A DNA stretch of 34,376 bases from Clostridia bacterium (GTDB taxonomy: Bacteria > Bacillota > Clostridia > Christensenellales > Borkfalkiaceae): the NCBI GenBank assembly GCA_029061465.1, contig JAIDRY010000120.1, positions 1 through 34,376 on the forward strand, given 5' to 3'. The notes beneath the pieces were generated by a model. It was not told the origin of the DNA. It made no database searches and saw nothing but the letters and a program-made list of their open reading frames with translations. This document shows, in pieces, positions 3,845-30,452 of the stretch. Numbering within the stretch: the first letter of the stretch is position 1; each line of letters opens with the position of its first letter. A program made the translations under genes and the position numbers.

Positions 3845-6325
3845 TTAATTTTCCCCCTGCCATTTTAATACGGGCCCGTTAGCACCGTTTTGCCATACGT
3901 CTGCGTAAGCGTTTAACGTAGACGCAAATGTTGTTAGCGCGGAAGCAGAAATCTGACACGCGCTGCTTTGTACCTCGGTTCCACCGATATAAATTATATT
4001 ATTTTGTTCTCCCTTGGCAGCGCCCGCCGCAAGTGGTTTGCCCGCTACGGTTGCCGTAAGGTAGTAACAATCGTTAATCATATTGCTGTATCCCGCAATA
4101 CCGCCCGCAGAAAGAGTCATACTCTCGATAAGATTCTTGGAATCCGATTTGTCCGCTGTGGTCCAACCGCTGTTAATTTTGAATAACAGGTTGCCGGGAG
4201 TCATTCTGCCGATGATGTCTTTGGTTTTGCCCCAGCTCTCATCATTTAAATTTGCGGGGTTACATCTGTTGAAGATAACTCCCGTCAGTTGTTCGGCTTT
4301 TATACTCATATCTGCGTAGTAGTATGTCATACCGTTTATTTCGGTCGCCGTCATGCGAACACCGGGCCAAGAAGGTCCTCCAGCCGCACCCCAGTAATAC
4401 ACGTAGAACAGCGCGCCGTCCATAGTAGGGTCCCAGTTGCAATTTTCAAAACTGAGGAAAATTCGCGTTGACCTGAGCGCACGTACATCTACGTTTATCG
4501 CGCCGGAATTGTAACAGTTGACGACGCCCAAGTCGGTTCCGGCTTCGTAATAGCCGTAGTTGTCGCCGACAATACCGCCCAACGATTCTGACCCGATTAT
4601 CGCGCCCGTATTGTAGCAAGAGATTATTCCCGCATTGGCGTAACTTACTTTACCTACTTCGTTTATGCCGTCGCCGCCGTTTTTGCCGGCTATGCCGCCG
4701 CCGTAGCTGACGACGCTTATCTCACCGTAGTTGTAGCACTGTGAAATTGTGCTATCAAACAACAGCTTTTCGTCGAAAATATTGAAGTTATATCCTACGA
4801 TACCGCCGCCGTAAGTATTGGCAGTAATCTTAGCTTCGTTGCCGCACTTAGTAACTATTCCGTTGTTGCGCCCGACTATTCCACCGACCGTCGTTTCGCC
4901 CGAGATATCGGCGCGGTTGATACAGCCCTCTATCGTTCCCGAATTGAAGATTGCAATTCCGCCCGCTTCGTTTGCACCGTAGACGGTGGTAGAGCTTTCG
5001 ATATTGCAGTTGGAAACAGTGCCCTTGTTAATGGATACAAGCGCCGCCGCGCCGTCCTTTACCGCGCAAATATAACTGTCGATTACTGTTACATTATCTA
5101 TCGTGCCGCGGTTGGTATACGCTAATAACGCACACTCGCCGCCCTTTTCGTGCATTATTCCGTCGTTTGACAAATTAGTCCATGTACGGAAGTTTGCGTT
5201 GTCTATCACTAAATTTTTGATAACTCCGCTCGGCGCAATCGAATCAAACATTGAAGAATAACCATCGCAGAAATACTTTACTGCATTAGACAGCTTGTGT
5301 CCGTCGCCGTCGATAACGCCGCTTAACGAACCGAAGCTGTAAAAGTTGTTATATACTTCTTCGTCGTCAGGAACGTAAGACGGAAGCGCGACGTCGTTAT
5401 TAAACTTGTAATACTTAGCCTCGTTTATGCCTTCATAATAATCCACGAACCTTAATTCTTCGGGAGAGGATATCATGAAAGGGTCTTGCTCCGTACCTGC
5501 GCCTTCGGCGTAGTACTTTATGCCGGCACGTTCGCTGTCTTCGAAATATCCGCGGGAATCTCCAGCCCAAACAGCTTTAACAAGGTATTGATTGGTTAAA
5601 TCGCAACGGTTTTTCGTTATCGCGGTTATTTTGTCGTTGACATCTAACAGATAGTATGTATTCGCTCCGTACACGGCTTCAAACGTCAATTCGTAGCCGT
5701 TCATATGAACGTTTTGCGGAACCGTCAGACTGCACGTTTTCAAAGCGGCGTTGTAGATAACTTCCGCTACCCCGCTGTCCGCTATCGACAAGCCGTCGCC
5801 TATGAACTGTACGCCGACAACACTGTCTGTTTTAAGCGTTTTAAGGTCGAACTGCAGAGTTTCTGCGGAAAGCTCCGTCTTGTCGCCGTTGAACGTAACG
5901 ACGGTTTTAGAAGCGTTAGCAACTGCCGTCCACGACAGCACGCCGTCTTTTGCCGTCAGCTTAGGCGTCGCAAGCACCAGCGTTTTGGGCGTGTAGGTCA
6001 AAAGCTCGCTCCATTCGGAACTCGCACCGCCGTTTACCGCGCGGACGCGCACCGTAAACTGTTTATCCGAGGGTATCTCGGGTATTTCCGACAAGTAGAA
6101 CTGCGTTTCCGAAGAGGGAAAAATTACGTTGTTTACACGCAATTCATAGCTTGCCGCGCCCTCGACGGGTTGCCACGTTACGATACCCTTGCTATCGACG
6201 GCAAGCTCCGTAGGCGTCGGAAGCGTCTGTCCTACGCCGCCGTCGTTGCAGGCTGTGATACACAGCGCTGCAAGCGCGACGGTCATTATAATTAATAATA
6301 TTGATAATAATTTTTTACGCATCAC
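3845..6325 (-). CDS. Lipoprotein with FN3-like N-terminal domains and GLUG repeats, with an internal CBM26-like starch-binding domain
   Basis: 826 aa. Lipobox ...ALCITACNDGG; repeated GGIVGRNNGIVTKCGNEAKIT / GGGIVGYN.. / GGIVGDNYG (GLUG-type); internal LFYVYYWGAAGGPSWPGVRMTATEINGMTYYYADMSIKAEQLTGVIFNRC. Confidence 0.82.
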   Translation of the reverse strand: MMRKKLLSILLIIMTVALAALCITACNDGGVGQTLPTPTELAVDSKGIVTWQPVEGAASYELRVNNVIFPSSETQFYLSEIPEIPSDKQFTVRVRAVNGGASSEWSELLTYTPKTLVLATPKLTAKDGVLSWTAVANASKTVVTFNGDKTELSAETLQFDLKTLKTDSVVGVQFIGDGLSIADSGVAEVIYNAALKTCSLTVPQNVHMNGYELTFEAVYGANTYYLLDVNDKITAITKNRCDLTNQYLVKAVWAGDSRGYFEDSERAGIKYYAEGAGTEQDPFMISSPEELRFVDYYEGINEAKYYKFNNDVALPSYVPDDEEVYNNFYSFGSLSGVIDGDGHKLSNAVKYFCDGYSSMFDSIAPSGVIKNLVIDNANFRTWTNLSNDGIMHEKGGECALLAYTNRGTIDNVTVIDSYICAVKDGAAALVSINKGTVSNCNIESSTTVYGANEAGGIAIFNSGTIEGCINRADISGETTVGGIVGRNNGIVTKCGNEAKITANTYGGGIVGYNFNIFDEKLLFDSTISQCYNYGEISVVSYGGGIAGKNGGDGINEVGKVSYANAGIISCYNTGAIIGSESLGGIVGDNYGYYEAGTDLGVVNCYNSGAINVDVRALRSTRIFLSFENCNWDPTMDGALFYVYYWGAAGGPSWPGVRMTATEINGMTYYYADMSIKAEQLTGVIFNRCNPANLNDESWGKTKDIIGRMTPGNLLFKINSGWTTADKSDSKNLIESMTLSAGGIAGYSNMINDCYYLTATVAGKPLAAGAAKGEQNNIIYIGGTEVQSSACQISASALTTFASTLNAYADVWQNGANGPVLKWQGEN
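4160..4470 (-). other. CBM26-like domain inserted within the GLUG-repeat region
   Basis: NCNWDPTMDGALFYVYYWGAAGGPSWPGVRMTATEINGMTYYYADMS..LTGVIFNRCNPAN, flanked by GLUG-type GGIVGDNYGYYEAGTDLGVVNCYNSGAI on the N side and GGIAGYSNMINDCYYLT on the C side. Confidence 0.68.
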
Positions 6326-6335
6326 TACTTACCCC

Positions 6336-9023
6336 TTAAATCTCAACAACCATGCTGCCGCCGACAGGTAAATAGCTCAGGCTTGCGCCGTTGGAAGCGT
6401 GGATGAGCTTAGCTCTGCTTCCAAATACTCGACCGGGATTTCCGTACTCGGACCTGCCGAAGTTGCAGATAACCCAGTACGTTTTACCCTCGTACGAACG
6501 CTTAAACGACATTATATCGCCGTTGTTGTCGAACGAACAGTAAGTATAGTCACCGTAACGAATAACAGGGTCTTCGGACTTCAATTTCGTCCAGCCCATT
6601 ACTTCTTTGAGGAACGAACCGTTAGTAGCTTTCTGCTCGGCTACACCGGGAAGAGTCTTGTTGTAGCTATCCCATTCAACGTAGTAGGTCTTGTCACCGG
6701 GGATAGAATAGCTCGTCGTGTACTTGCCCGCCGACTTGCTCCACTTGAAGGGCTGACGGTACTGTCTGTCGACATGGGGTGAAGTCTTGCTCTCGCCCGT
6801 GCCGTAGTTACTGCTCATACCAAGCTCGTCGCCGTAGTAAATCCAGCTAATGCCGGGCAACGTCATCATTGCCGCTATGGTAGTCAAAGCGCGTTGCTTT
6901 GCCTCGTTTGCAGTCGCCGCCGTAACCACATCAGCCGCCGTCAAGCCACCGGCAACGTTATTCAACAGTCTGTGTACGTCGTGGTTACTTGTGAACAGCG
7001 AATTGGTGACTTGGTTACCGTACTTCGCGTTAGTTTTCATAACGTCGTTGAGGTTCCAATAGTTTGTCAAAAGCTTGTTAGTATTGGTACCAGTTATCTC
7101 TGCAATTTTTTCTTGGTCACCACCCGGTTCGCCCGCTCTCTTCTGTCCGGCGAAACCTTGTGCCCAGCCCATATGTCCCGCAATCTGAGCAAGGTTGTAA
7201 TAACTATAGAAGTCCAACATTCCGTCGAACGCCTTGTAGTAAGGTGCAACGTTGTATGCGTGACCGTCGAAGTTTTCACCTACGACGTAAGCGTTGGGAT
7301 TAATTTTCTTGATGCCGTCGATGAGCCAGCAGAAGAAATCCATATTTTTGGTTACGTTGGTGCTGTAATCGGTCTTGGTAGCTTCGTCGTAGTCCGAAAT
7401 GATAATATCACTCGGTGACGGCGTTACCTCGTCTTGCATATAGATATGTTTAACCGCGTCCATACGGAATCCGTCAACGCCCATATCCAACCAGAACTTG
7501 GTTACGTCTAAGACTGCGTTACGCGTGCCCGTATAGTCGTAGTTAAGCTCCGGCATTGACGTGCCGAATTTAGCGTAGTAGGAATAAGCGTATTCACTGT
7601 AAGCATACCAGGTTGAGGTAAGCTTTTCTGTCTCGTGGTTGCGCCAGTGGTAGAAGTTGCGGTAATCAACGACTTTGCCGTCCTCGCCTGTCTCTTTTAC
7701 CATTTTAGCCGATTTCTGGAACCAGACGTTATTCATGGAAGTGTGGTTTAAAACCAAATCCATTATTACCTTCATACCCCTCTTGTGGCACTCGTCAAGT
7801 AATTCCTGATATTGTTCCATAGTGCCGAATTTGGGGTCTACTGAGCAGTAGTCAATTATGTCATAGCCGTGGTAGGAGTCGGATTCCTGAATTGGCGTAA
7901 GCCAAAGTACGTCTACGTTCAAATCCTTGTCTAAATAGTCGAGGTTGTCGAGAATACCCTGAATATCGCCCAAACCGTCGCCGTCGCTGTCTGCAAAGGA
8001 CGAAACCATTATCTGATATCCTACGCCGCTGACCGTATCGAAAAGATTTTTAGGGTCTGCGGTTGCTTGAAGGCTGTTCCAATCCTTGGTAACGACGTCT
8101 GATTTGGAAACGTGCGAGCCGTCATCGTTTTCGTAAGGGTTGCTTATTTCACCCTTGTTGGCAATATAGAATACGAATTGCTTCACGTTGTCCTGCGTAG
8201 CGAATACGTGAATCGAACCGTTCACACGCACGTTGCCGTCGATTTCGAAATACTGGTTTCCGCAGTCCGACTTCCAGTGACTACCGCTGTTCTTGCTGTC
8301 GTCGTATACTATGAGGAAGCCTATCTTGGGGTCGTTATACTTGGTTTTGTCCTTTATGTATTCCGGCTTATAGTTATCGTCGCACGCATCGTCGATAAAA
8401 TATTGCTGGGTTTCGGTTCCGCTGTTGCCCGCGCCCGTGTATTTTTTGGTTAAGTCGATATCGCAGACCGCACCGCCGATTTCGTCCACTATGACTTTAC
8501 CGGAGGAATCCTTTTCCCAGTTGAACGTTTTGCCGGTCTTTTGGCTGGGCCAGACCCAAAGGCTCATGTTCTCGTACGATTTGGGGGTGTTGTCGAATCG
8601 CATATAGTGGATATACAAGTGACCATTTTCGCTTTTTGCGTTCAGTTCGTCCTCGTACGCCTGCAGCTCGCTGTCCGCTACGTTCGATTTCCAGTTTGCA
8701 TACAGCACAACGTCGTGGTCGGGCATCGTATCCCAAACAAATTTGTCTTGCCAAACGCCGTAGTCGGTATACCAACCCAAAAATTCATAATTCGGATATG
8801 TCAGTCCTTCCGGCTCAGTAATTTTGCTCCCCGCTTTGATATCAAGCATGGGGTTTCCCGCCTTACCTTTGTCCGTATAGAAATAAATTCCGTACGAGGC
8901 CGTAACCTCGCCTCCTCCTACCGTAGGTTTTTCACCTTCGGGCGGCTTTTGTTCGTTGCCGCACGCCGACATGGTGAAAAGCATACAAACTGCCATTACA
9001 AAAAATAAAATCTTTTTACCCAT
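6336..9023 (-). CDS. Lipoprotein alpha-amylase (GH13) with InlB-type repeat and pullulanase-associated-like N-terminal domain
   Basis: 895 aa. Lipobox LFTMSACGN; GH13 motifs VMDLVLNHTS, DGFRMDAVKHI (nucleophile D), YVVGENFDG (acid/base E), LFTSNHDVHR. SD AGGAAAG upstream of ATG. Confidence 0.92.
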   Translation of the reverse strand: MGKKILFFVMAVCMLFTMSACGNEQKPPEGEKPTVGGGEVTASYGIYFYTDKGKAGNPMLDIKAGSKITEPEGLTYPNYEFLGWYTDYGVWQDKFVWDTMPDHDVVLYANWKSNVADSELQAYEDELNAKSENGHLYIHYMRFDNTPKSYENMSLWVWPSQKTGKTFNWEKDSSGKVIVDEIGGAVCDIDLTKKYTGAGNSGTETQQYFIDDACDDNYKPEYIKDKTKYNDPKIGFLIVYDDSKNSGSHWKSDCGNQYFEIDGNVRVNGSIHVFATQDNVKQFVFYIANKGEISNPYENDDGSHVSKSDVVTKDWNSLQATADPKNLFDTVSGVGYQIMVSSFADSDGDGLGDIQGILDNLDYLDKDLNVDVLWLTPIQESDSYHGYDIIDYCSVDPKFGTMEQYQELLDECHKRGMKVIMDLVLNHTSMNNVWFQKSAKMVKETGEDGKVVDYRNFYHWRNHETEKLTSTWYAYSEYAYSYYAKFGTSMPELNYDYTGTRNAVLDVTKFWLDMGVDGFRMDAVKHIYMQDEVTPSPSDIIISDYDEATKTDYSTNVTKNMDFFCWLIDGIKKINPNAYVVGENFDGHAYNVAPYYKAFDGMLDFYSYYNLAQIAGHMGWAQGFAGQKRAGEPGGDQEKIAEITGTNTNKLLTNYWNLNDVMKTNAKYGNQVTNSLFTSNHDVHRLLNNVAGGLTAADVVTAATANEAKQRALTTIAAMMTLPGISWIYYGDELGMSSNYGTGESKTSPHVDRQYRQPFKWSKSAGKYTTSYSIPGDKTYYVEWDSYNKTLPGVAEQKATNGSFLKEVMGWTKLKSEDPVIRYGDYTYCSFDNNGDIMSFKRSYEGKTYWVICNFGRSEYGNPGRVFGSRAKLIHASNGASLSYLPVGGSMVVEI

Positions 9024-9110
9024 ATTCTTTCCTGTCTTTTTCCGTTTATATTATTCGCCCCGCAGATAGCCCTGCGTTGCGGATTTTTTGCCGCTTGTCA
9101 TAAACCCGCC

Positions 9111-9145
9111 GTAAGAGTAGTCGGAAAAAGCCCGACTACTCTTAC
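9111..9145 (-). promoter_or_regulatory. Strong intergenic RNA hairpin without an adjacent U-tract (possible mRNA stabiliser or processing element)
   Basis: GTAAGAGTAGTCGG (9111-9124) pairs perfectly with CCGACTACTCTTAC (9132-9145), 7-nt loop, between giant gene stop (9170) and amylase start (9023). Confidence 0.6.
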
Positions 9146-9169: not shown

Positions 9170-12100
9170 TTAAGGTCTGTCGGTCGTTGTTACGCCGCTA
9201 GTAGTGTAGTAAATGCATAAATCATCATCAACCGAATCAACATTGAACGTGAAGGTGCCCGACTGATTAGTACCGCCACCGCTACCGTTATTGAATATAA
9301 TAGAGGTGTAATTTTTGTAAGCCTCTTTCGAAATATCCAAATAGTACCAGTTGTTGCCAGCCCACTTCATCTGCACTCCGGGCCACGTCGCATTTTTATT
9401 GTCATCATTCAAATAACAATATGCGTAAACGTCAAACCACCAATCTATATCGCTATCCTTATGGAAGTAAATCCTTATGGGTTCGGCAGTAAGTTGAACC
9501 CAAATATTATTGCCTGCCGAACCAACGTAGAAGTCATAATAGCCCTTTTCCTCTGACGTTCCTTTGAAAGGAGAATTAGACTGATAAGCACTTTGTGTAA
9601 CGGCAACGCCCTCATTCTCAATTATGAACGCCGTATTTGCCGGTAGCTTAACACGCGTAATAAAGTATTCGTTTTTATTCGTGTCTAACGTAAGGTTATA
9701 AGTTACGTCTCCGACGGTAAGCGTTATCTTGGAGGGAACTGTTACCCAAATACTGTTTTTAGTGCTGTCCGTATAAATTTTAACGTAGAACGCGTAGTTT
9801 CTACCGCCTATGGACGCTTTGCCACTGAAACCGCAGTCTTCGTCATATGCGGAATACGTATTGCCTTCGTTATCGGTAATCGTAACAGTATCGTTCTTTT
9901 GCAAGGTTACGCCCGTTGCGAAATACTCGGTTCCGTTTTGAATATCGGACGCAGTATTTACTTCTAACGCTATCGTTTTTCCGCCGGTAATCGTCAAGGT
10001 TACCGCGTATTCGGGCTGGGTTGCCGTAGCAGTTGCCACTGCGTTGTCAGCGCCGGGAGTAACGGTAATTACGTGGTCGCCAGAGCGCGTTGCCTTATAC
10101 GATGTCTTTCCGTTGATTGTCGGCGTACCGGGTTTATTATCTGCAAGGGTAACGATGTCGTTAATTTTAAGCGTAACCGTAAACTTGTAAACGCCGTCTT
10201 CTTTTACAGGCTGTTGTTCAGACGCAACGCCACCCACGCTAAGGGTTACCTTGTATTCGGGTACCGTAGTTACAACGCTTGCGTTAGTACCGTCAACAGT
10301 TACCGCAAAGGTATACGTACCTTCAAATACTGCAGTGCCGTTGAAGTTGTCGCCAAGCGAAACTGCCGCGCCGTTGTACCTGATTTCAACCGTTTGATTG
10401 GATTTAAGTTCGACGTCTCCGCTGAGATACCTGTTTTCGTTGTCGGGGTCAACGGTCATAAACTTAGCCGCACCGTTGTTTACGATTATCTTGGGAACGG
10501 ATTTTACCGTAACCTGAATCGTAATATCCTCTACGCCGGGGTAGGAAATGGTAACCGTCTGCGCGGTAAACTTGCTTGCGCTGAAACCTTCGAAGTCTAC
10601 TGTATAGGTGGAAACGTTAGCCGTCGAATCGTCCGTATAGGTGAGCGTAATTTTAAGTCCCGCGTCTTTTAACGCCTGAAGTCTTGCATCTTCACCCGCA
10701 ACGGTTTCGGAAATGGTAAATGTGCTTTGGTTAGGAGCAATGCTCTTAGCCGCCTTTATCAGCTGTACGGGAAGCGTTGCGGTAAGCGGACTGCCCTCGT
10801 ACGTGTACCCTATAGTTACGTCTTGCGCCGTGGTGAAGTTGTGGTAATCGAACTCGCCGAGCGTTACGGTGCAATTTGCCTTTATAGCGGTTACTTTTTC
10901 GCCGTCGTCCATTACGACCTTGACGGAAGTAATTGCTGCTTTGATAGCGTTGATAACTTCGGTTTCATTCGCACCCTTTACCTCTACGGTCGCAGGCAGT
11001 ACTTCAAGGCTTGAAGGAGTTGCCTTTATAACCGTTACCTTGACGGCAGTAGTCTTTCCGCCGAAGCTGATAGTAACCGTCTGCTCGCCGTAAGTCGTAG
11101 CGCTGAACGACGCCGGTACAACCGTGGCTGCCACGTTCTGGACGGTCGTGCCGTCGTTATACGTTGCCGTTACGGTGATTGCAGCTAAAATATTTGCTGC
11201 CGTAGCGTTTACACCGGTAAGGTTGATTGACGTAGCGCCTTCTGCTTTATAAGCTGCGGAAATTGCGGTAACCTTTGCCGCAAGAACCTTGACGGATATC
11301 TCGGTGTCCTCTCCGCCGCAAGCAACCGTAACAGTCTGTACTGTATTGAGTGTGTCTTTATCGAAGCCCTCAACCGTATAGTTGGTTACTTCGCCGTCCG
11401 CGCCTACGTCATACTTCGCCGTAACGGTGAGCGCCGCATTTAAGTTGTCGGCTTGCGTGCCGTACAGAATAAGCGTACCGTCTTCCGCGACTTCGTAAGT
11501 ATTCTTAAAGCTTACGGTAATCTCGGTTACCTGAGGCTCCGTATATTCGACGGAAATTATATCGTTAGCTTTGTCTTTGCCGAGCTTGATATATATCGTG
11601 TAAGTTCCGTCCGCAGTAACGGTGCCGTTGCCGAATTCGCTTGCGGTATCATTATCGTAGCCTAACGTTTTGCCGCTGATATCCTTGACGGTAATTTTGT
11701 CGCCTGCAACTGCCTTCACAACTGCCTTATACTGCTGTTTGAAGTTTGCGCCCAAATTATCGGGGTTGTCAAGCTCGAACCCGACTACGGTAGGTTCGCC
11801 GCCGTGTTCAACCGTAGCCTGCGCGAAGTAGGTTACCATAATGCCGTCCTGAGCGCTACCGTCTACGATTACGGAGATGTTATACTTGCCGGTCAGGTAA
11901 ACAGTACCGTTGAACCTGCAGTCCGCCTTGTAGTTTGACTTCACGTCGCCGTCTACCTTTACGACAACCGTCTGACCTGCGGTGAGCGTTACGCCCGTCG
12001 CCGTATTGGTCCTGTACTCTACGTTCTGTTTGTTGCCCTCATTGCGTCTGAGATTTACGGTTGTTTCGCCGTAGGTAATGGAAACGACCATATCGGGAAC

Positions 12101-15100
12101 GTCTACCGCAATGAGGTGGCTACTGCTGTAAATTGTTAAGCTGAAATCATAGTTGCCGTTTCTGGGTGCAGTGCCCTTGAATTCGCCGTCCGTTGCGTAG
12201 GAGGTAAACTTCTTGCCCTCGTTGTCGGTAATTGCAACCGTGTCGCCCTTGTTCAAGGTAACGCTTGCAGTGTACTTCGACAGAGCGCCCGAAGGTTTAT
12301 TTGCGTTATCGAGAGTAAGCGTTTCCGAAGTTTCCGTTTCACCGCTTGTAATCGTCATCGTTATGCTGTATGCGGGTGCGGTTACTGCAACTTCGGACTT
12401 CGTGTCGTCAGTCGTAACGGTGAAGGTGTATTCGCCCGTGCGGGTTGCAACGTACTCGTCTTCTCCCTCTATTGTCAAATCGCCGAATTTATTATCGGAA
12501 ACGGTAACCTTGTCGCCTTTGCTAAGCGTAAGCGTCCAGGTATTTGCCGAGGTGGGTTGCTTAACGTCGTTGCCTACCTTTAAGGTTGCCGCATAAGCGG
12601 GCGCCTTGGTGCAGGCTACCGTCGCGGTTGCGCCGTCAACCGTAACAGTGAACGCATACGTGCCGTTGAGCTTAGCCGTGCCGTTAACTATAGCGCCGTT
12701 AGCGTCGGAAACCGTCAATTCACTGCCCTTATAGGTAATAACGACTTTTTGTCCGCGCGTAAGCTGGATATCTCCGCTGGGGTATTTGTTCGCGCTGTCA
12801 GCATCGGCGGTCATAAACGTTGCCGCCGCGCCCTTTGCGGAAATCTTGGGAACGGGAACTATAGTTACTTCAACCGTCGCACTTTCTACTCCCGTGTAGG
12901 AAATAGTTGCGGTTTGCTTATAAGTAGTTGTGTCTAATGCGCCGAACGTTACGGTGTAGCCATCGGTTTCCACCGGCTCGCCAGCCGAGTAATTAAGCGT
13001 AACGGTAATTAAATTGCGCAAAGCAGTTATTTTATTGCTTTCAGCTTCGGAAATTGAAATCTCCGCACCTGCACCCGCTTTTGCGGTTACCGTAATGCTC
13101 TCTGCCTTTCTCGTCATGCGCACCGTGAGAGTTGCGGTAAGTCCGTTACTCTCGATAGTTACGCTTTGATTTTCACCGAATTTTTCAACGTCAAAGTTAT
13201 TGGGAAGCTTAACTTCGTAGTCCGTGCGGGTAGTTCCGTCGTTCATTGTAACGGTAACGGTAAGCCTTTCCTCAATATAGTCAGAAACGTCTTTTGCTTC
13301 TGATATAGTGTTGTCGTTTACGACGTCTATGGAGTTTTGACTGAGTTCAATCGAAACTGCCGTGGGCGCTACAACTTTCACGTTGACTTTCGTAGTCTTT
13401 CCGCCGAAGCTTATCTCAACTTCCTGCGTTTGTCCGTACTTCGCCTCGCTTGCGTCGAACGTTGACGTGGTAACTTCGGCTGCCGTGGTTTGTTTGGTGG
13501 TTCCGTCGTTGTACGTTGCCGTAACCGAAATTGCGTCTAAAATATTTGCTACCGTTGCATTTGCGCCGATAAGCTCGATTGACGTAGCGCCTTCTGCTTT
13601 ATACGCCGCGGTAATTCCGGTAACTGTTGCCGCCAGAACCTTGACGGATATAGTAGCGCTCTCTCCGCCGTAAGCAACCGTAACGGTCTGAACCGTGTCA
13701 CGTTTTGACTTGTCGTAGCCGCTAACTGTATAGTCCGTCTTGTCAACTACGGTGTCGCTTGTTTGAACGTCATAAGTAGCCTTAACGGTGAGCGCCGCGT
13801 CTAAGTCATTGGCTTGCACACCGTAAAGGTTAAGCACTTTGTCAACAACGGTAAATCCATTCTTAAAGCTTACGGTAACTTTCTCTACCTGAGGCGCCCT
13901 ATAATCGACGGAAATTATATCGTCATCGTTGTTTTTGCCGAGATTAATCCTGAACGTGTAGGTTCCGTCATTTGCGGCAGTGCCGTTAAAGACGGTTGCA
14001 TTCTCGTAATTTAATACGTTGTTGCCGATATCCCTGACTGTAACCTGGTCGCCTGCAAACAGCTTTTCAACCGCTATGAAGCGCGAACGATACTTTTCAG
14101 CCAAGCCGTTTACGTTGTACTCGGTTGATGCATCTCTCGTGGATGCGCCGCTCTGTACTGTAACCTGTACCCAGTCGGTTACCCAGATGCCCTGGTCATC
14201 ACCGTCAAGCTGAATGTAGAAGTCGTAATTACCCGTAAGGTAAACGTTGCCGTCGAACTTGCAGTTCGCCTTGTAGTTTGACTTCACGTCGCCGTCTACC
14301 TTGACGACAACCGTCTGACCTGCGGTAAGCGCCAAACCGCCCGCCGCGGTCTTATACTCTTCGATTTGAGGTTTGGCGGCGTTACGGTCAAGGTTGACTG
14401 TCGTTGAGCCGTAGGTAATGGAAACTACCTTGGCGGGAACGGTTACTGCAATGCTGTGTCCGTCTCCGTCAATTATTACGCGGAACGTGTACGTGCCGTC
14501 TCTGGGCGCAGTGCCCTTGAATTCGCCGTTTGCCGCGTAAGCGTTAAACGTGGTGCCCTCGTTGTCGGTAATTGCAACCGTGTCGCCCTTTAATAAGTTA
14601 ACGCTTACTGTATATTCAGACTCGCCTTCGACCTTAGTTAACGTTTTCGTCGTTTCCGTTTCACCGCTTGTAATCTTCATCGTTACCGTGTATTCGGGTG
14701 CGGATTGTACCGTTACGGCGGACTTGGTATCGCCGTTAGTGAATGTAAACGTATACTGTCCGTTATACGGTGCTTTATATTGCGATGAAGTGCCAATGTT
14801 CAAATTGCCGAATTTATTATCCGAAACGGTAATTATATTATCTTTGCTAAGCGTAAGCGTCCAGGTGTAGCTGTTGCCTGTAACGGCGGGTGCCTGCGTT
14901 GCCGCAGTGCCGTCTACTTTAAGGGTTACCGCGTAAGTGGGCGCCTTGGTGCAGGTTACCGTTGCGTTAAGTCCGTCAGGCGTAACTTCGAACGCATACG
15001 TGCCGTTGAGCTTAGCCGTGCCGTTCTCGATAGCGCCGTTGCCGCCGGAAACGGTGAGCGTTTTGCCCGCATAGGTAATTGCAACCTGTTCTCCGCGCTT

Positions 15101-18100
15101 AAGCTCGATATCCCCGCTGGGATACTTGCCCTCGTTGGCGGTCATAGGCGTTGCCGTAGCTCCCTTTATGGAAATTCTGGGAACGGGAACTATAGTTAAA
15201 GTAAGCGTCTTGCTCTCTTCTACGCCCTCGTAGGAAATAGTTGCGGTTTGCTTGTAGTCCGCCGTTAACGCTCCGAATTCTACCTCGTAGCCCTCGGTTG
15301 TTTTCGGATTGCCCGCCGAGTAACTAAGCGTAACCGTAATACGCGTGCGCAAAGCGGCTTCTTTATCAACTACGTTTAACGTATCGAAGAATTCAAGCGT
15401 TGCGCCGTCGTTTACTTTATAGGCAATGCTCTCCGCCTTTCTCGTCATCTGCACTGTAAGAGTTGCGTTAAGTCCGTGAGCCGTAATAGTAACTTGTTGA
15501 CCGCTCTCAAAGTTCAAAATGTCAAAGCCGGCGGGAATAGTTACTTCGTAGTGGTCGAAGCTCTCGCATACATATCCGTCATCCATTGTAACGGTAGTTT
15601 TAAGCGTTTTCCTGATGACCGGAATAATGTCGTCGGGTTCTGATACAGTGTTGTCGTTTAAGACGTCTACTGTGTTCTTATTAAGTGTAATCGTAAGTGC
15701 CGTAGGCGCTATAACTTTTACGTTGACGGTAGTAGTTTTTCCGCCGAAGCTGATTGTAACTTCCTGCGTCTGTCCGTACTTCGCCCCGGTTGCGTCGAAC
15801 GACGACGCTACAACCGTAGCTTCCACGTCTTGTTCAGTGGTTCCGTCGTTGTACGTTGCCGTAACCGAAATTGCAGCTAAAATATTTGCTTCCGTTGCCT
15901 GTATACCGACAAGCTCAATTGACGTAGCGCCGGTCTCATTATAAGCCGCGGTAATTTCCGTTACGTACGCATCTAAAACCTTAACTTTTATAGTATCGGT
16001 CTTTGCAACTTTATTAACGGTGTAAGAAACGGTAACGGTCTGTACGCCTTCGGTATCCTTGTCGTAGCCTGAAACCGTATAGTTGGCGATTACGGTGTCA
16101 GCGGCTTGAACGTCATAAGTAGCCTTAACGGTGAGCGCCGCCTTTAAGTTGTCGGCCTGCACGCCGTATAAAGTGAGCACTTCGTTATCGTCAACTTCAA
16201 ATCCGTCTTTAGCTGTTACGGTAATTTTTTGTAAAGCCGCCGCTGCGTAACCGACGTAAACGATATCGTCTTTACTGTCTTTGCCGAGTTTTATATAGAA
16301 CGTATAAGTGCCGTTTGTTGCTGCGGTGCCGTTAAAGAAGTCTTTATTCTCGTACTTAAATACGTTGCCGCCGATATCTTTAATGGAGACTTTATCTCCT
16401 ACAAGCAACTGCGCGGTTGCTTTGTACTGCTGCTTGAACTGTGTGCCCAAATCAGTAGGTTTGTCAAGCTCGGGCGTAATGGGGTCTAAATTCTTGCCGT
16501 TTCTTTCAATTAAAACTTGCCTTTCAACGTCGGCAGCTACCCAAATGCCTTTATCACCGTCGTCAAGCCTTACGTAGAAGTTGTAATTACCGGTAAGATA
16601 AACCGTACCGTTGAACTTGCAAGCCGGCTTGTAGTTCGTCTGTTTTACACCCTCTACTTTGATTTCAACCGTTTGACCAGCAGTCAAAGCCAAACCGGTA
16701 ATCATATATTCATCTTTGGTAGGCTCATTTTCGTCATAATTGCGGACAAGGTTTACGAACTCTGAGCCATAGGTAAGCGTAACCTTGGCGGGAACCTCTA
16801 CTTCAACGCTGTGTCCGCTACCGCTGATTATTACGCGGAATTTGTAGACGCCGTTTCTGGGCGCAGTGCCCTTGAATTCGCCCGCTGCTGCGTAACCGTC
16901 AAAGGTTTTGCCCGCGTTGTCGGTAATTGCAACCGTGTCGTTCTTTTGCAAAGTAACGTTTACGGAATACGTCTGACCTTCGCCCTTTGTAAGCGTTTTA
17001 GTATCGACAACCGCACCGCCGCGCGTTACCTTCATCGTTACCGTGTACTCGGGTGCCTCTACGACAAAGTTTCTATCGTCGGCGTCGGGGTTAACGGTGA
17101 ACGTATAGTCGCCGTTGTAGGGCGCAATGTACTCCTCTTCTCCGTCGAATTTGTTATCGGAAACGGTAACCTTGTTGCCGACTTTAAGCGCAAGCGTCCA
17201 GGTGTTTTCTTCCGTGGCGGTCTTTTCAACGCCGTTCACTTTTAAAGTCGCCTTGTACTCGGGCACCGTGGTAACGACGCTTGCCGTATTTCCGGCAACC
17301 GATACCGTAAATGTATATACGCCGTCAAGTGCCGCCGTGCCGTTGAAGTTGTTGCCAAACGCAACCTGCGCGCCTCTGTACGTAATTACAACAGTATCGC
17401 CGCGGCTAAGCTCGACGTTGCCGCTGAGATACCTGTTGGCGTCGGCGGAGTCTGCCGTCATAAACTTCGTGTCGTCCCCTACCGTAATTTTAGGAACGGC
17501 AAGTATGGTTACTTCCACCGTCTGACTGTCTAATCCCGTGTAGGAAATAGTTGCGGTTTGCTTATAAGTTGTTGTATTTAATTCGCCGAACGTTACGCCG
17601 TAGCCGGTAGTTGTGTCAGTCGACTCGTCCGAATAAGTGAGCGTAACGGTAATTTTTTCCTTCAACGCGGTTATTTTAGCGTTGCCCGTCAACCTTTCCG
17701 AAATAGAAACTGCACTGCCTTTCAAGGTTACAGCCATGCTCACGGGCTGCTTTTTCAACTGCACTTCTATTTCTACGGTCTTTCCGCGACTAGTTATTTT
17801 AGCCGTCTGTGCATTGTCAAAATCCGTAACGTCAAAGTCGTCTGCAAGCTCCACTTCGTAGTTCTTGTCATTCTCGAAAACGGTGTCGTCGTTCATCGTT
17901 ACGGTAACGGTAAGCGTATTCTTAATGGCTTCGATTATTTCCGCCTTAGTTTCGTTTTCGTGCGTTATAATAACGTCTACGGATTGCATATCCGCTTCGA
18001 GCTTAACAGCCGTAGGCGCTATAACTTTTACGTTGACGGTAGCGTTTTTTTCGCCGAAGCTTATCTCAACTTCCTGCGTCTGTCCGTATTTAGCAGAGGT

Positions 18101-21100
18101 TGAATCGAAAGTTGACTCCGTAACCGTATAGTTTTGCTTATTAACTTCTTTGGTTGTACCGTCGTTATAAGCCGCCGTTACGGTGATTTTATCTTTAATA
18201 TTGGCTATCGTAGCTTTTTTGCCGACAAGCTCGACCTGCGTCGCGCCGTCCTTATACTCAACGGTAATTCCGGTAACCTTTGCCGCCACAGCCTTGACGG
18301 ATATATTTTCGCTCTTTCCGCCGTACGTAATTTTAACGGTCTGCACCTCATTGAGCGTGGTCGACGAGAAGTTAGTCGTATAGTCGGCGTTGGCGATTAC
18401 TTTGTCCGCGCCTACGTCAAACTTAGCCGTAACGGTAAGCGCCGCCTTTAAGCTGTCTTTTTGCGCGCCGTATAAAACGAGCACGCCGTTATCAACTTCA
18501 AATCCGGTTTTGAAAGTTACGGATAAGGACTCTACTGCCGGAGCCGCATATTTGGTGGAAACGACGTCGGTCGCATCATGCCAGCCGGCGAGCTTAATAT
18601 TGAACGTGTAAGTACCGTCCTTTGTCGCAGTGCCGTTAAATACCGTTGTGTTTCCGTATGCTATTACGTTGCCGCCGATATCCATGACGGTAACTATGTC
18701 GCCGACAAGCAGCTTTGCAACCGCTATGAATTGCGACTCGTAATTCTTATCCAAACCGGTGAGGTCATAGTCGATTTCTTCGACTATTCTCGTAGTTTCA
18801 CCGCTCTTTACCGAAACCTGTACCCAGTCGGTTACCCAAACGCCCTTGCTTGCGCCCGAGGGTGTAACGTAGAAGTCATAGTTACCCGTCAGATAAACGG
18901 TGCCGTCGAACTTGCAGTCCGCTTTGTATGCAACGGGCTTGCCGTCATACGTGAATGCAACCGTATCACCTGCTTCAAGCGGCTGTCCCTGAAGCATATA
19001 TTCGGTTGTGTTGCCGGGGTTAACCTCTAACTCGACAGGTTCGCCGCCGTTTATAATAATGTATGCGCCCTTATCGGGTGTAGGAGTGGGATTGTCGGGT
19101 TTGAATTTGACGGAAACGATATCGTCCGTGCTTACATAACCGAGCTTAATGGTGAACGTGTAAGTGCCGTTATTTAAGGCAGTGCCGTTAAATACGGTTT
19201 TGTCCTCGTATTTTAACGTGTTGCCGCCGATATCCTTTACGGTAACTTTGTCGCCGGCAATCAGCTTTTCAACCGCTATGAATTGCGACTGATACTTTTC
19301 CTCCATACCGGTGGCGTCGTAGTTGATTTCTTTGACTATTCTGGTATCTCCACCGCTAAGCACTGAAACCTGTACCCAGTCGGTTACCCAGATACCCAGG
19401 TCGTCCCCTGCAACCTTAACGTAGAAATCATAATTGCCGGATAAATGAACGGTACCCTTGAATTTGCAGGCTTTCTTGTACTCGACGACTTCTCCGTCAT
19501 GCTTGAATACAACCGTATCACCCGCGGTAAGCGAGTAACCCTGAAGCATATATTCGCCGGGGGTTGCTGCGTTTTCCGGTAATTTGACGGGAGCGCGGTC
19601 GTTTATAATAATGTATACGCCGTTGGTATCAGGTTCGGACTCGTCCTTGATAAATACGGTAACGTACGTTTTTATATCATCGCCGTACTTAATCGTAACC
19701 GTCTGGTCGTCGTCTACTAATTCAAGGTCTAAGCCTTCGATTTCGTAATCGGTAATTTCTTTTTTGGAGCCGTCGCTCATTACGGCTTTAACGGTCAAAA
19801 GACCTCTGAGCGTTTGCTCGGAAGCATCTTCTTTTTCCATCGTTAAGACGTCGCCCTCAAAGATGGCTTCAAGTGAAACGACGTGCGGAACGACGGGAGT
19901 TTCTTCCGTTACGAATACCGTAACCGTATCGGAAAACTCGCCGTATTTAATGGTAACGGTCTGGTCGACGTTGACTTTCGCCGCGTCGAAGTCCACTACC
20001 GTCAAGCCCTCGGTTACGGGCTTGGTGGTGTTATTGTCATACTTGGCGGTAACGGTTACTTGCGCTAAAATAGCCGCTTCCGTTGCGTTTGCCTTTTGAA
20101 GGGTGATTTTATCTCCGTCAATGCTGACTTCGATTGAAACGATTTGAGGAACTACGGGAGTTTCTTCCGTTACGAATACCGTAACCGTATCGGAAAACTC
20201 GCCGTATTTAATTGTAACGGTCTGGTCGACGTTTACTTTCGCCGCGTCGAAGTCCACTACCGTCAAGCCCTCGGTTACGGGCTTGGTGGTGTTATTGTCA
20301 TACTTGGCGGTAACGGTTACTTTTGCTAAAATAGCCGCATCCGTTGCGTTTGCCTTTTCAAGCGTGATTTTATCTCCGTCAATGCTGACTTCGATTGAAG
20401 TGATTTGAGGAGGAATGACAGGAGTACTTTTTACTATTACAGAAACGTTTGCGGAAAACTCACCGTACTTGATATTTACAGTCTGAACCTCGTCCAGCTT
20501 AGCCGCGTCGAAGCCCACTACCGTCAAGCCTTCGGTAACAATCTTGGTGGTTTTATCGTCATAGGTTGCGGTAACGGTTACTTTCGCCAGGATTGCCGCT
20601 TCCGTTGCGTTGTCCTCGGTCAACGTGATTTTGCCGCCGGACACGGTTGCCTTAATCGAAACGACCTGCGGAACTACGGGAGTTTCTTCCGTAATCAACA
20701 CTTTAACGGTCGCGGTAAACTTGCCGTTCTCTCCGTACTTAATAGTTACGGTTTGGTCTGCGTTCGTTTTGACAAGGTCTAAACCTTCGATTATGTAGTC
20801 GGTAATAACGGCTTTGCTGTTATCGCTTTTTACCGCTTTGACGGTCAAAGCGCTTCTGAGCGCCTGCTCGGAAGCTTCCGCCTTTTTCATCGTTACCTTA
20901 GCTTCGCCGCTGTTCACGGTTACTTCTATCTTGGTAACCTGGGGAACGGGAGTTTCTTCCGTAACCTGTACCTTAACCGTCTTCGAGAACGTGCCGTACT
21001 TAATAGTAACGGTCTGGTCTACGTTTACTTTCGATGCGTCGAAGCCCGTTACGGTGTAATTCGTAACAGTCTCTTTCGAATTGTCGCTCTTTACGGCTTT

Positions 21101-21550
21101 AACGGTCAAAAGTTTTCTGAGCGCTTGCTCTGAAGCCTCAGCCTTTTTCATCGTTACTTTATTGCCCGTATAGGTTACCTCAATCGAAGTAACCTGCGGC
21201 GTTACCGTTGCGCCATTCACTTTTACCGGAACGGTCGCGGTAAATTCACCGTACTTTACCGTTACAGTCTGAACAACGTCCAGCTTGGTAGCGTCGAAAT
21301 CTTCGACGGTATAATCCGTAATTGTCTGCGTGGTCTCGTCGTTGAGCTCCGCAATAACGGTTATCCCGTCCATAATATTTTCTATAGTGGCGTCTTTCTG
21401 TGCTAACTCCACCACTTCGCCGCCGCCGTTAATTTCGACGGTTATTCTTTCCACCTCGGAATTGTACCTGCAGGCGGGAACGGCGAAAATAGCGGCGATT
21501 GCAAGCACGACTATTGCGCATAACGCCAGTATCTTCTTAAAACGTTTCAT
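9170..21550 (-). CDS. Giant multidomain surface protein (4126 aa from the proposed start): putative lipoprotein, ~23 Big_3-like Ig domains, ~23 FxGTA-type modules, C-terminal CBM26-like domain
   Basis: Single uninterrupted ORF. Signal MKRFKKILALCAIVVLAIAAIFAVPAC|RYN; repeated ...DQTVTIKYGEFSDTVTVFVTEETPVVPQ units; C-terminal IYFHKDSDIDWWFDVYAYCYLNDDNKNATWPGVQMKWAGNNWYYLDIS..SIIFNNGSGGGTNQSGTFTF. ATG at 21550 preceded by AGGAGG (ORF track start at 21565 is upstream of the SD). Confidence 0.9.
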   Translation of the reverse strand: MKRFKKILALCAIVVLAIAAIFAVPACRYNSEVERITVEINGGGEVVELAQKDATIENIMDGITVIAELNDETTQTITDYTVEDFDATKLDVVQTVTVKYGEFTATVPVKVNGATVTPQVTSIEVTYTGNKVTMKKAEASEQALRKLLTVKAVKSDNSKETVTNYTVTGFDASKVNVDQTVTIKYGTFSKTVKVQVTEETPVPQVTKIEVTVNSGEAKVTMKKAEASEQALRSALTVKAVKSDNSKAVITDYIIEGLDLVKTNADQTVTIKYGENGKFTATVKVLITEETPVVPQVVSIKATVSGGKITLTEDNATEAAILAKVTVTATYDDKTTKIVTEGLTVVGFDAAKLDEVQTVNIKYGEFSANVSVIVKSTPVIPPQITSIEVSIDGDKITLEKANATDAAILAKVTVTAKYDNNTTKPVTEGLTVVDFDAAKVNVDQTVTIKYGEFSDTVTVFVTEETPVVPQIVSIEVSIDGDKITLQKANATEAAILAQVTVTAKYDNNTTKPVTEGLTVVDFDAAKVNVDQTVTIKYGEFSDTVTVFVTEETPVVPHVVSLEAIFEGDVLTMEKEDASEQTLRGLLTVKAVMSDGSKKEITDYEIEGLDLELVDDDQTVTIKYGDDIKTYVTVFIKDESEPDTNGVYIIINDRAPVKLPENAATPGEYMLQGYSLTAGDTVVFKHDGEVVEYKKACKFKGTVHLSGNYDFYVKVAGDDLGIWVTDWVQVSVLSGGDTRIVKEINYDATGMEEKYQSQFIAVEKLIAGDKVTVKDIGGNTLKYEDKTVFNGTALNNGTYTFTIKLGYVSTDDIVSVKFKPDNPTPTPDKGAYIIINGGEPVELEVNPGNTTEYMLQGQPLEAGDTVAFTYDGKPVAYKADCKFDGTVYLTGNYDFYVTPSGASKGVWVTDWVQVSVKSGETTRIVEEIDYDLTGLDKNYESQFIAVAKLLVGDIVTVMDIGGNVIAYGNTTVFNGTATKDGTYTFNIKLAGWHDATDVVSTKYAAPAVESLSVTFKTGFEVDNGVLVLYGAQKDSLKAALTVTAKFDVGADKVIANADYTTNFSSTTLNEVQTVKITYGGKSENISVKAVAAKVTGITVEYKDGATQVELVGKKATIANIKDKITVTAAYNDGTTKEVNKQNYTVTESTFDSTSAKYGQTQEVEISFGEKNATVNVKVIAPTAVKLEADMQSVDVIITHENETKAEIIEAIKNTLTVTVTMNDDTVFENDKNYEVELADDFDVTDFDNAQTAKITSRGKTVEIEVQLKKQPVSMAVTLKGSAVSISERLTGNAKITALKEKITVTLTYSDESTDTTTGYGVTFGELNTTTYKQTATISYTGLDSQTVEVTILAVPKITVGDDTKFMTADSADANRYLSGNVELSRGDTVVITYRGAQVAFGNNFNGTAALDGVYTFTVSVAGNTASVVTTVPEYKATLKVNGVEKTATEENTWTLALKVGNKVTVSDNKFDGEEEYIAPYNGDYTFTVNPDADDRNFVVEAPEYTVTMKVTRGGAVVDTKTLTKGEGQTYSVNVTLQKNDTVAITDNAGKTFDGYAAAGEFKGTAPRNGVYKFRVIISGSGHSVEVEVPAKVTLTYGSEFVNLVRNYDENEPTKDEYMITGLALTAGQTVEIKVEGVKQTNYKPACKFNGTVYLTGNYNFYVRLDDGDKGIWVAADVERQVLIERNGKNLDPITPELDKPTDLGTQFKQQYKATAQLLVGDKVSIKDIGGNVFKYENKDFFNGTAATNGTYTFYIKLGKDSKDDIVYVGYAAAALQKITVTAKDGFEVDDNEVLTLYGVQADNLKAALTVKATYDVQAADTVIANYTVSGYDKDTEGVQTVTVSYTVNKVAKTDTIKVKVLDAYVTEITAAYNETGATSIELVGIQATEANILAAISVTATYNDGTTEQDVEATVVASSFDATGAKYGQTQEVTISFGGKTTTVNVKVIAPTALTITLNKNTVDVLNDNTVSEPDDIIPVIRKTLKTTVTMDDGYVCESFDHYEVTIPAGFDILNFESGQQVTITAHGLNATLTVQMTRKAESIAYKVNDGATLEFFDTLNVVDKEAALRTRITVTLSYSAGNPKTTEGYEVEFGALTADYKQTATISYEGVEESKTLTLTIVPVPRISIKGATATPMTANEGKYPSGDIELKRGEQVAITYAGKTLTVSGGNGAIENGTAKLNGTYAFEVTPDGLNATVTCTKAPTYAVTLKVDGTAATQAPAVTGNSYTWTLTLSKDNIITVSDNKFGNLNIGTSSQYKAPYNGQYTFTFTNGDTKSAVTVQSAPEYTVTMKITSGETETTKTLTKVEGESEYTVSVNLLKGDTVAITDNEGTTFNAYAANGEFKGTAPRDGTYTFRVIIDGDGHSIAVTVPAKVVSITYGSTTVNLDRNAAKPQIEEYKTAAGGLALTAGQTVVVKVDGDVKSNYKANCKFDGNVYLTGNYDFYIQLDGDDQGIWVTDWVQVTVQSGASTRDASTEYNVNGLAEKYRSRFIAVEKLFAGDQVTVRDIGNNVLNYENATVFNGTAANDGTYTFRINLGKNNDDDIISVDYRAPQVEKVTVSFKNGFTVVDKVLNLYGVQANDLDAALTVKATYDVQTSDTVVDKTDYTVSGYDKSKRDTVQTVTVAYGGESATISVKVLAATVTGITAAYKAEGATSIELIGANATVANILDAISVTATYNDGTTKQTTAAEVTTSTFDASEAKYGQTQEVEISFGGKTTKVNVKVVAPTAVSIELSQNSIDVVNDNTISEAKDVSDYIEERLTVTVTMNDGTTRTDYEVKLPNNFDVEKFGENQSVTIESNGLTATLTVRMTRKAESITVTAKAGAGAEISISEAESNKITALRNLITVTLNYSAGEPVETDGYTVTFGALDTTTYKQTATISYTGVESATVEVTIVPVPKISAKGAAATFMTADADSANKYPSGDIQLTRGQKVVITYKGSELTVSDANGAIVNGTAKLNGTYAFTVTVDGATATVACTKAPAYAATLKVGNDVKQPTSANTWTLTLSKGDKVTVSDNKFGDLTIEGEDEYVATRTGEYTFTVTTDDTKSEVAVTAPAYSITMTITSGETETSETLTLDNANKPSGALSKYTASVTLNKGDTVAITDNEGKKFTSYATDGEFKGTAPRNGNYDFSLTIYSSSHLIAVDVPDMVVSITYGETTVNLRRNEGNKQNVEYRTNTATGVTLTAGQTVVVKVDGDVKSNYKADCRFNGTVYLTGKYNISVIVDGSAQDGIMVTYFAQATVEHGGEPTVVGFELDNPDNLGANFKQQYKAVVKAVAGDKITVKDISGKTLGYDNDTASEFGNGTVTADGTYTIYIKLGKDKANDIISVEYTEPQVTEITVSFKNTYEVAEDGTLILYGTQADNLNAALTVTAKYDVGADGEVTNYTVEGFDKDTLNTVQTVTVACGGEDTEISVKVLAAKVTAISAAYKAEGATSINLTGVNATAANILAAITVTATYNDGTTVQNVAATVVPASFSATTYGEQTVTISFGGKTTAVKVTVIKATPSSLEVLPATVEVKGANETEVINAIKAAITSVKVVMDDGEKVTAIKANCTVTLGEFDYHNFTTAQDVTIGYTYEGSPLTATLPVQLIKAAKSIAPNQSTFTISETVAGEDARLQALKDAGLKITLTYTDDSTANVSTYTVDFEGFSASKFTAQTVTISYPGVEDITIQVTVKSVPKIIVNNGAAKFMTVDPDNENRYLSGDVELKSNQTVEIRYNGAAVSLGDNFNGTAVFEGTYTFAVTVDGTNASVVTTVPEYKVTLSVGGVASEQQPVKEDGVYKFTVTLKINDIVTLADNKPGTPTINGKTSYKATRSGDHVITVTPGADNAVATATATQPEYAVTLTITGGKTIALEVNTASDIQNGTEYFATGVTLQKNDTVTITDNEGNTYSAYDEDCGFSGKASIGGRNYAFYVKIYTDSTKNSIWVTVPSKITLTVGDVTYNLTLDTNKNEYFITRVKLPANTAFIIENEGVAVTQSAYQSNSPFKGTSEEKGYYDFYVGSAGNNIWVQLTAEPIRIYFHKDSDIDWWFDVYAYCYLNDDNKNATWPGVQMKWAGNNWYYLDISKEAYKNYTSIIFNNGSGGGTNQSGTFTFNVDSVDDDLCIYYTTSGVTTTDRP
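9173..9482 (-). other. C-terminal CBM26-like starch-binding domain of the giant protein
   Basis: WWFDVYAYCYLNDDNKNATWPGVQMKWAGNNWYYLDISKEAYKNYTSIIFNNGSGGGTNQSGTFTFNV. Confidence 0.75.
9480..11540 (-). repeat. Super-repeat copy 4 (terminal, divergent; lacks the fifth FxGTA module and runs into CBM26)
   Basis: Begins TEPQVTEITVSFKNTYEVAEDGTLILYGTQADNLNAALTV; four Big-like domains then PKIIVNNG... and FxGTA-type modules. Confidence 0.75.
11541..13890 (-). repeat. Super-repeat copy 3 (~2.35 kb)
   Basis: Begins RAPQVEKVTVSFKNGFTVVDKVLNLYGVQANDLDAALTVKATYDV; same domain order as copies 1 and 2. Confidence 0.8.
13891..16235 (-). repeat. Super-repeat copy 2 (~2.35 kb)
   Basis: Begins AAALQKITVTAKDGFEVDDNEVLTLYGVQADNLKAALTVKATYDV. 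Confidence 0.8.
16236..18540 (-). repeat. Super-repeat copy 1 (~2.3 kb)
   Basis: Begins APAVESLSVTFKTGFEVDNGVLVLYGAQKDSLKAALTVTAKFDV. Confidence 0.8.
19640..21480 (-). repeat. N-terminal tandem array of seven Big_3-like domains (~87 aa each)
   Basis: Units end with QTVTIKYGxFSxTVxVxVTEETPVxPQ and start with V(T/V)SIEV...; seven counted by eye. Confidence 0.8.
19888..20409 (-). repeat. Two near-identical tandem 261-bp units (87 codons each)
   Basis: Shadow ORFs at 19883 and 20144 start 261 bp apart and are almost identical; I count roughly 10 mismatches per 261 bp by eye. Confidence 0.85.
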
Positions 21551-21618
21551 CTTTCCTCCTATCATATTTCACTTTTAAAAAGAGAAATAGGTATGCTCGT
21601 GGGCATACATCATTTAAT

Positions 21619-21647
21619 AGTTTAACACTTTAAATCTTTATCGTCAA
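21619..21647 (-). promoter_or_regulatory. Predicted sigma-A-type promoter of the starch operon
   Basis: Minus strand TTGACG - 17 bp - TAAACT; leader of ~60 nt with small hairpin GTATGC-N6-GCATAC (21591-21608) and SD AGGAGG before ATG 21550. Confidence 0.6.
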
Positions 21648-21800: not shown

Positions 21801-21832
21801 GCCCGCTATCTTCACTTGTGAAGATAGCGGGC
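21801..21832 (-). terminator. Intrinsic terminator (possibly bidirectional) for the 277-aa lipoprotein gene
   Basis: 15-bp perfect stem GCCCGCTATCTTCAC-TT-GTGAAGATAGCGGGC; minus-strand U-tract ATTTTTTATT follows. Confidence 0.85.
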
Positions 21833-29867: not shown

Positions 29868-30452
29868 TTATTCGCTTATATCAAGTCCTTTTATCCAATC
29901 GGCAACAGTATTTAAAGAAGTGCCTGACGAAAACCTTTTTCCCGATACCCATTCCGCAGACGGAGCAAGCGGGTGCAGGTTTGTGTCGCTTGAGCCTATA
30001 CCGCTGCTTTGCGAGGTGCAGAACGGAATAACCATCTTGCCGGAAAAGTCGTAGCTTTCCAAAAACGTATAAATTATTTTCGGCGCCTGACCGTGCCATA
30101 TGGGATATCCCAAAAACACAACGTCGTAATTTCCCATATCCTCTACGCTTCCGCTTATTGCAGGGCGGGCGGTGCTGTCGGCTTGTTCCCTGTCCGCTCT
30201 GCAATCCGTGTAATACTTCAAATCGTCTTCGGTATAAGGCACTTCGGGAATGATTTTGTAAAGCGTTCCCGTCGTTTCCGCCTGGATATGTTCGGCTATT
30301 GCCTCGGTTGTGTTCGTGCAGGAAAAGTATACGATAAGGACTTTTTTCTCACTTCCTTCGGTTGGCGGTATTTCGTTGTCGTGATTGCCGCAGGCGGGCA
30401 ATGCGAACAACGCCATTATGATTACTAAAATTACTCCCAAAAGTTTTTTCAT
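29868..30452 (-). CDS. Flavodoxin family lipoprotein
   Basis: 194 aa. Lipobox ALFALPACGN; flavodoxin signature KVLIVYFSCTNTTEAIAEHIQ, DVVFLGYPIWHGQAPKIIYTFLE. Confidence 0.88.
   Translation of the reverse strand: MKKLLGVILVIIMALFALPACGNHDNEIPPTEGSEKKVLIVYFSCTNTTEAIAEHIQAETTGTLYKIIPEVPYTEDDLKYYTDCRADREQADSTARPAISGSVEDMGNYDVVFLGYPIWHGQAPKIIYTFLESYDFSGKMVIPFCTSQSSGIGSSDTNLHPLAPSAEWVSGKRFSSGTSLNTVADWIKGLDISE

Follow-up and report, generated by a model that had tools for sequence, protein, structure and literature searches.

A putatively lipid-anchored protein of 46 modules with a C-terminal CBM26 at the head of a starch-utilisation operon in an uncultured Clostridia bacterium

Gene organisation of the locus

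The window, meaning the whole stretch of 34,376 nucleotides that was analysed, has the same extent as the contig. Five genes, all on the minus strand, run from position 21550 down to position 2 and encode a giant protein, a GH13 amylase, the marker protein orf3, a protein with CBM26 and B modules and a pullulanase (Table 1). The pullulanase gene is cut at the left end of the window; contig C137, which overlaps by 16 nt, carries its in-frame continuation, followed by a GntR-like gene. No malto-oligosaccharide transporter was recognised next to the operon in this genome; maltodextrin-type ABC transporter genes are found, together with GH13 matches, on contig C76.

The mechanical open reading frame of the giant gene spans 21565..9170 on the minus strand and has 4,131 codons for amino acids. 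The second ATG, at 21550, is the likely start because AGGAGG is located immediately upstream, which gives a protein of 4,126 aa. A preliminary description of this DNA, made from the letters alone, had reported an uninterrupted ORF of ~12.4 kb; the frame is fully open and the coordinates agree. The super-repeats of the gene share 57-71% DNA identity and still keep frame and module motifs, and no exact repeat in the gene is longer than 88 bp (modules A5/A6), so the assembly is credible and collapsed or invented repeats are unlikely. One module could have been gained or lost at the 88-bp repeat in a short-read assembly. Between the giant and GH13 genes (approximately 9095-9130) lies a perfect 12-bp inverted repeat, AAGAGTAGTCGG/CCGACTACTCTT, which has no T run and is perhaps an mRNA-processing or stabilising hairpin.

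Misbinning of the contig was considered and is unlikely: the inorganic pyrophosphatase at its right end shares up to 93% identity with those of congeners, and its gene lies beside a LysR gene as it does there. Upstream of the giant gene, positions 22829-25573 and 25707-29684 encode a transglutaminase-like protein and an M60-type peptidase with an F5/8 type C domain, each with a C-terminal membrane helix. A homologue of the transglutaminase-like protein (32%) is found near the pyrophosphatase gene of one congener (L049), and in congener G006 (L045:3-7914) a lipoprotein with GH13 (35% identical) and an LRR_5 lipoprotein of 1,435 aa are encoded near that gene, as if this neighbourhood were variable.

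Table 1. Features of the operon and of the giant gene, in order of decreasing window position
Feature	Position	Strand	Basis or remark
Terminator-like hairpin between giant gene and upstream gene	21801..21832	-	sequence
Promoter-like TTGACG-17-TAAACT, TG preceding second hexamer, 5' of giant gene	21619..21647	-	consensus match only
Ribosome-binding site AGGAGG, 4 nt 5' of ATG 21550	21555..21560	-	sequence reading
Giant gene, 4,126 aa, 442 kDa, pI 4.6	9170..21550	-	ORF reading
Signal peptide, residues 1-27, ending in lipobox-like AVPA-C27	21470..21550	-	sequence
Seven A (Big_3-type Ig) modules, residues 33-634, with 8-9-aa TEETPVVPQ-type linkers	19649..21454	-	HMM/Pfam
Four B modules, residues 644-1000	18551..19621	-	HMM
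Four A modules, residues 1006-1349	17504..18535	-	HMM
Five B modules, residues 1352-1767	16250..17497	-	HMM
Four A modules, residues 1773-2120	15191..16234	-	HMM
Five B modules, residues 2123-2549	13904..15184	-	HMM
Four A modules, residues 2555-2897	12860..13888	-	HMM
Five B modules, residues 2900-3335	11546..12853	-	HMM
Four A modules, residues 3341-3682	10505..11530	-	HMM
Four B modules, residues 3685-4021	9488..10498	-	HMM
CBM26 starch-binding module, residues 4025-4103, aromatic positions Y-x-Y ... W-P-G	9242..9478	-	Pfam/HMM
GH13 alpha-amylase lipoprotein (TMSAC) with Flg_new and PUD-like domain	6336..9023	-	
orf3 lipoprotein (ITAC) with FN3-like and GLUG-like repeats and divergent CBM26; operon marker	3845..6325	-	
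Protein with N-terminal membrane helix, Flg_new, CBM26, four B modules and CBM26	1468..3843	-	
Pullulanase, N-terminal half (CBM48, PUD-like)	2..1450	-	continues in frame on contig C137

Architecture and probable anchoring of the giant protein

HMMs built from the giant protein itself resolve 23 A and 23 B modules followed by one CBM26, in the order A7-B4-(A4-B5)x3-A4-B4-CBM26 with a super-repeat of ~780 aa; the total is exactly 46, where the preliminary description had counted about 46 by eye. That description had also recognised no catalytic domain, and none was found with Pfam or NCBIfam. The modules occupy 3,898 of the 4,126 residues and leave no gap larger than 12, so an enzyme hidden in the repeats is excluded at the domain level. 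The A modules are of the Big_3 Ig type (25.4 bits against a cut-off of 21.2, five stretches), and their profile matches 4fd0/4fdw at 1e-4. Linkers within the N-terminal A7 block have 8-9 residues, those elsewhere being mostly of 0-5 residues. Tryptophan is absent from the A modules and occurs 13 times in the B modules, in many cases in motifs of the GIWVTDW type, and five times in the CBM26. Apart from CBM26 and Big_3, the Pfam search of the giant protein returned nothing and the NCBIfam search nothing meaningful. Judged by these searches, half of the stalk is built of a module type (B) absent from protein-family databases.

The single CBM26 that had been placed at the extreme C terminus scores 44.3 bits in Pfam against a cut-off of 28.1. 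It keeps the aromatic platform, VYAYCY ... TWPG, at columns conserved across 51 aligned copies. A Lactobacillus CBM26 carrying W32L fails to bind starch (PMC6260227). The lone CBM26 of the giant protein may bind weakly by itself. A B-B-B-B-CBM26 tail is common to the giant protein and the protein encoded at 1468-3843.

The N terminus, MKRFKKILALCAIVVLAIAAIFAVPAC, has a positively charged n-region, a hydrophobic h-region and a Cys after a small residue, so that the signal and lipobox-like element (FAVPAC) noted earlier is present. Its Pro at position -2 departs from the usual lipobox pattern and is found in two of the 26 genes with a lipobox-like signal across 415 kb of the genome, both of them in the window. 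This rarity would fit a protein that is secreted without a lipid anchor, AVPAC being left unprocessed by Lsp. Against this, the signal of the second case, a flavodoxin gene at 29868-30452, ends in LPAC, and four homologues of the giant protein have orthodox lipoboxes (VGC, AAC, VAC and FGC). Because of these homologues, lipid anchoring of the family is likely; the giant protein itself is probably secreted and lipid-anchored, and an unanchored form is improbable.

The B module

The B module is ~80 aa long with a G-x-Y-x-F core. It matched no Pfam family, X25 and SusE included, and nothing significant in the PDB by sequence, and it was not detected at 1e-6 in the other 398 genomes of the phylum sample or in 92 congeners. 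In hhalign comparisons, B as an X25 module at the sequence level is unsupported (probability 5-14% against PF22058 X25 relatives), and B as a divergent CBM26 was rejected at a probability of 2%.

The predicted structure gives a different picture. An AlphaFold model of B that used the 27 copies in the window has a pLDDT of 90.8, and a Foldseek search of the PDB places SusF first and SusE second (probability 1.00, query TM 0.71 and 0.63), with modest E-values of 0.018 and 0.026. For a separate model of the C-terminal B-B-B-CBM26 segment, which is poor over the CBM26, the top matches are Sca5 X25-2, SusE and the N domain of the amylase Amy703, all at probability 1.00, and the E-values with this four-domain model are 0.0018 and 0.0026. 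The modules of SusE, SusF and Sca5 are grouped together as X25 (PMC9112005). On these models, an X25-like fold of B is likely.

All B-bearing proteins that are not truncated by a contig end carry CBM26, including two putative esterases (PF00756; L055:9760-11634 and L058:9853-11421), whose B and CBM26 modules suggest an acylated starch or alpha-glucan substrate. Since the predicted fold of B resembles X25/SusE/SusF and B is found with CBM26, part of the stalk may bind too, the B modules adding weak sites along it. B is a candidate new starch-binding family, seen so far only in starch-associated proteins. In the strongest form of this idea, B would be an undescribed X25/SusE-like starch-binding family and the giant protein a ribbon, tethered by its lipid, that offers as many as 24 alpha-glucan sites over ~150 nm, many of them weak and the CBM26 being just the last. 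A Trp or Tyr is kept in the last strand of some B modules (GIWVTDW), and the X25 modules of SusF bind malto-oligosaccharides at ~300 uM (PMC9112005). Other observations point the other way: B does not conserve the Trp pair of X25, there being no invariant Trp column; just 6 of the 23 B modules of the giant protein have Trp at the last-strand position, and many have none at all; and isolated single X25 lobes of Sca5 showed no binding (PMC9112005). We regard the ribbon as a tentative reading, on balance doubtful. If it were true, the protein would be a single-polypeptide, convergent answer to SusE/SusF and the amylosome. The single starch-binding tip of the preliminary description consequently holds for CBM26, of which there is one copy, and possibly does not hold for starch binding as a whole, given the 23 B modules.

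The operon in related genomes

An alignment of orf3 served as the marker with which the operon was located across genomes. Of the 396 genomes examined in the order, 18 have the operon, and of the 93 in the genus, 1. Those relatives whose records carry names are MAGs, among them Clostridiales RUG14300, Acholeplasmatales RGIG3708 (goat rumen) and Christensenella UBA1252. The common gene order is a CBM26 surface protein, GH13, orf3 and a CBM26 protein, often followed by a solute-binding protein and permeases, and pullulanase; the solute-binding protein and permease genes lie within the relatives' operons.

Where the upstream region is covered, a secreted CBM26 protein precedes GH13 in the related operons, except in the distant operon of the f173 type, in which no CBM26 protein was recognised at that place. 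The occupants of the slot include a lipoprotein of 2,006 aa (A3, then alternating B and CBM26; 11 CBM26), one of 1,847 aa (A and B4 followed by B and CBM26; 11 CBM26) and one of 979 aa with 5 CBM26. In family f160 (L233:3902-8395 and L234:11055-13085) the slot encodes proteins that carry 8 or 1 CBM26 behind a prepilin-like N terminus, FTITELVIVIAVIAILAAVLIPTFSNV, and are candidate starch-binding pilin-like proteins. A further relative, in genome G750, has A-B6 and then B/BB-CBM26 units with 5 CBM26 over 1,714 aa before the contig ends, its neighbourhood not being matched to the operon. The theme of the slot, a secreted CBM26 carrier, is constant, and reach and copy number are very variable. 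With one CBM26 on a stalk longer than any other seen, the window copy is the extreme of the series.

In the GH13 tree the window copy pairs with that of G574, a genome of another family (100/100), and most genes of the surrounding group belong to that family. The amylase shares 64% identity with its G574 counterpart and 35% with a congener's. Agreement of the orf3 tree with this placement is weak, and the pullulanase tree gives no resolution. The GH13 tree suggests lateral acquisition, which is the simplest reading. G574 also encodes a lipoprotein (L056:5130-8162) that has three A modules, two CBM26 and five or more closely similar B modules (DNA identity up to 96%) and is cut off by the contig end, the assembly having probably broken within the repeats.

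The contrast between one CBM26 here and 5-11 in relatives could also mark a degenerate version, in which a CBM26 array was lost and the stalk grew without selection for starch reach. A possible parallel is the nearest operon, that of G574, where a stop-interrupted CBM26 remnant lies just 5' of GH13 at the contig end. In the window, by contrast, the 12.4-kb frame is open throughout, the aromatic positions of CBM26 are kept, and the super-repeats have intact frame and motifs despite their divergence in DNA, which leaves degeneration little chance.

Proposed function

The giant gene heads an operon for amylase, pullulanase and CBM26 proteins, which supports a role in starch use. The preferred reading, with a probability of about 0.75, is that it encodes a cell-surface starch tether as the first product of a starch-utilisation operon. 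Lgt and Lsp would process the protein to a lipoprotein held at the membrane via Cys27. The seven N-terminal A modules would span the wall, with the A/B blocks that follow extending outward, perhaps as a filament. With the general figure of ~4 nm per Ig module, 46 modules would give a total reach of perhaps 150-200 nm. The terminal CBM26 would grip granular or soluble alpha-glucan and keep it close to the surface amylase and pullulanase, and the products would enter via an ABC transporter such as that on C76. Of the starch-grappling fibre proposed earlier, the secreted, non-enzymatic, modular CBM26 protein stands; the lipid anchor is probable, the filament form conjectural and the sole binding tip in doubt.

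A different partner is conceivable for such a rod. Giant Ig-repeat rods are usually adhesins, as exemplified by the Mobiluncus adhesin of 7,651 residues and 51 Ig-like domains (PMC10619420), and the M60 peptidase and transglutaminase-like protein are encoded upstream. The giant protein could accordingly be a structural or adhesive rod whose main partner is host mucus, other cells or a surface layer, with CBM26 incidental. This is unlikely in view of the first place of the gene in the starch operon, the CBM26 protein in the same slot across other families and B modules known only from starch-associated proteins; moreover, a terminator-like hairpin parts the giant gene from the upstream genes.

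Comparison with known systems

Insoluble starch is reached via Sus proteins in Bacteroides, via amylosomes in R. bromii and via CBM-bearing surface amylases. Anchored multi-modular starch-binding proteins are already known, and the giant protein is an extreme long-stalked version of them. It adds a further layout, an operon-leading, probably anchored stalk in uncultured small-genome Clostridia-like bacteria, the host being an uncultured gut-type bacterium. The slot before GH13 also provides a natural series, with 5-11 CBM26 on a short stalk at one end and a lone CBM26 on 46 modules at the other, in which reach can be compared with the number of binding sites.

The terminal module belongs to CBM26 (PF16738), and its closest solved relatives are those of R. 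bromii Amy16 and Amy10; the giant protein differs from these carriers in having a single copy on a non-enzymatic stalk of 46 modules. SusE and SusF of Bacteroides thetaiotaomicron are likewise non-enzymatic surface starch binders of tandem beta modules and have the closest folds to the B model, but they comprise two and three X25 modules (PMC9112005), belong to the outer membrane of a different phylum and have no sequence link to B. The R. bromii amylosome proteins Sas20 and Sca5, surface starch binders from Clostridia, have X25 folds together with CBM26 partners (PMC9112005); attachment there is by sortase or dockerin, whereas a lipobox is found here and Pfam matched no dockerin or cohesin in the window proteins. 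The giant Ig-repeat adhesins (Mobiluncus adhesin, BAP) share a stalk of dozens of tandem Ig-like modules and differ from the giant protein, which has a starch operon context and a CBM26 tip. Finally, a gpPUL brings together a polysaccharide-degrading enzyme, a transport system and a regulator (PMC5320581). The present operon is similar in clustering amylase and pullulanase with binding proteins, to which relatives add an ABC transporter; in this genome no gene is assigned as the regulator, the enzymes are in the operon and the transporter is on another contig (C76).
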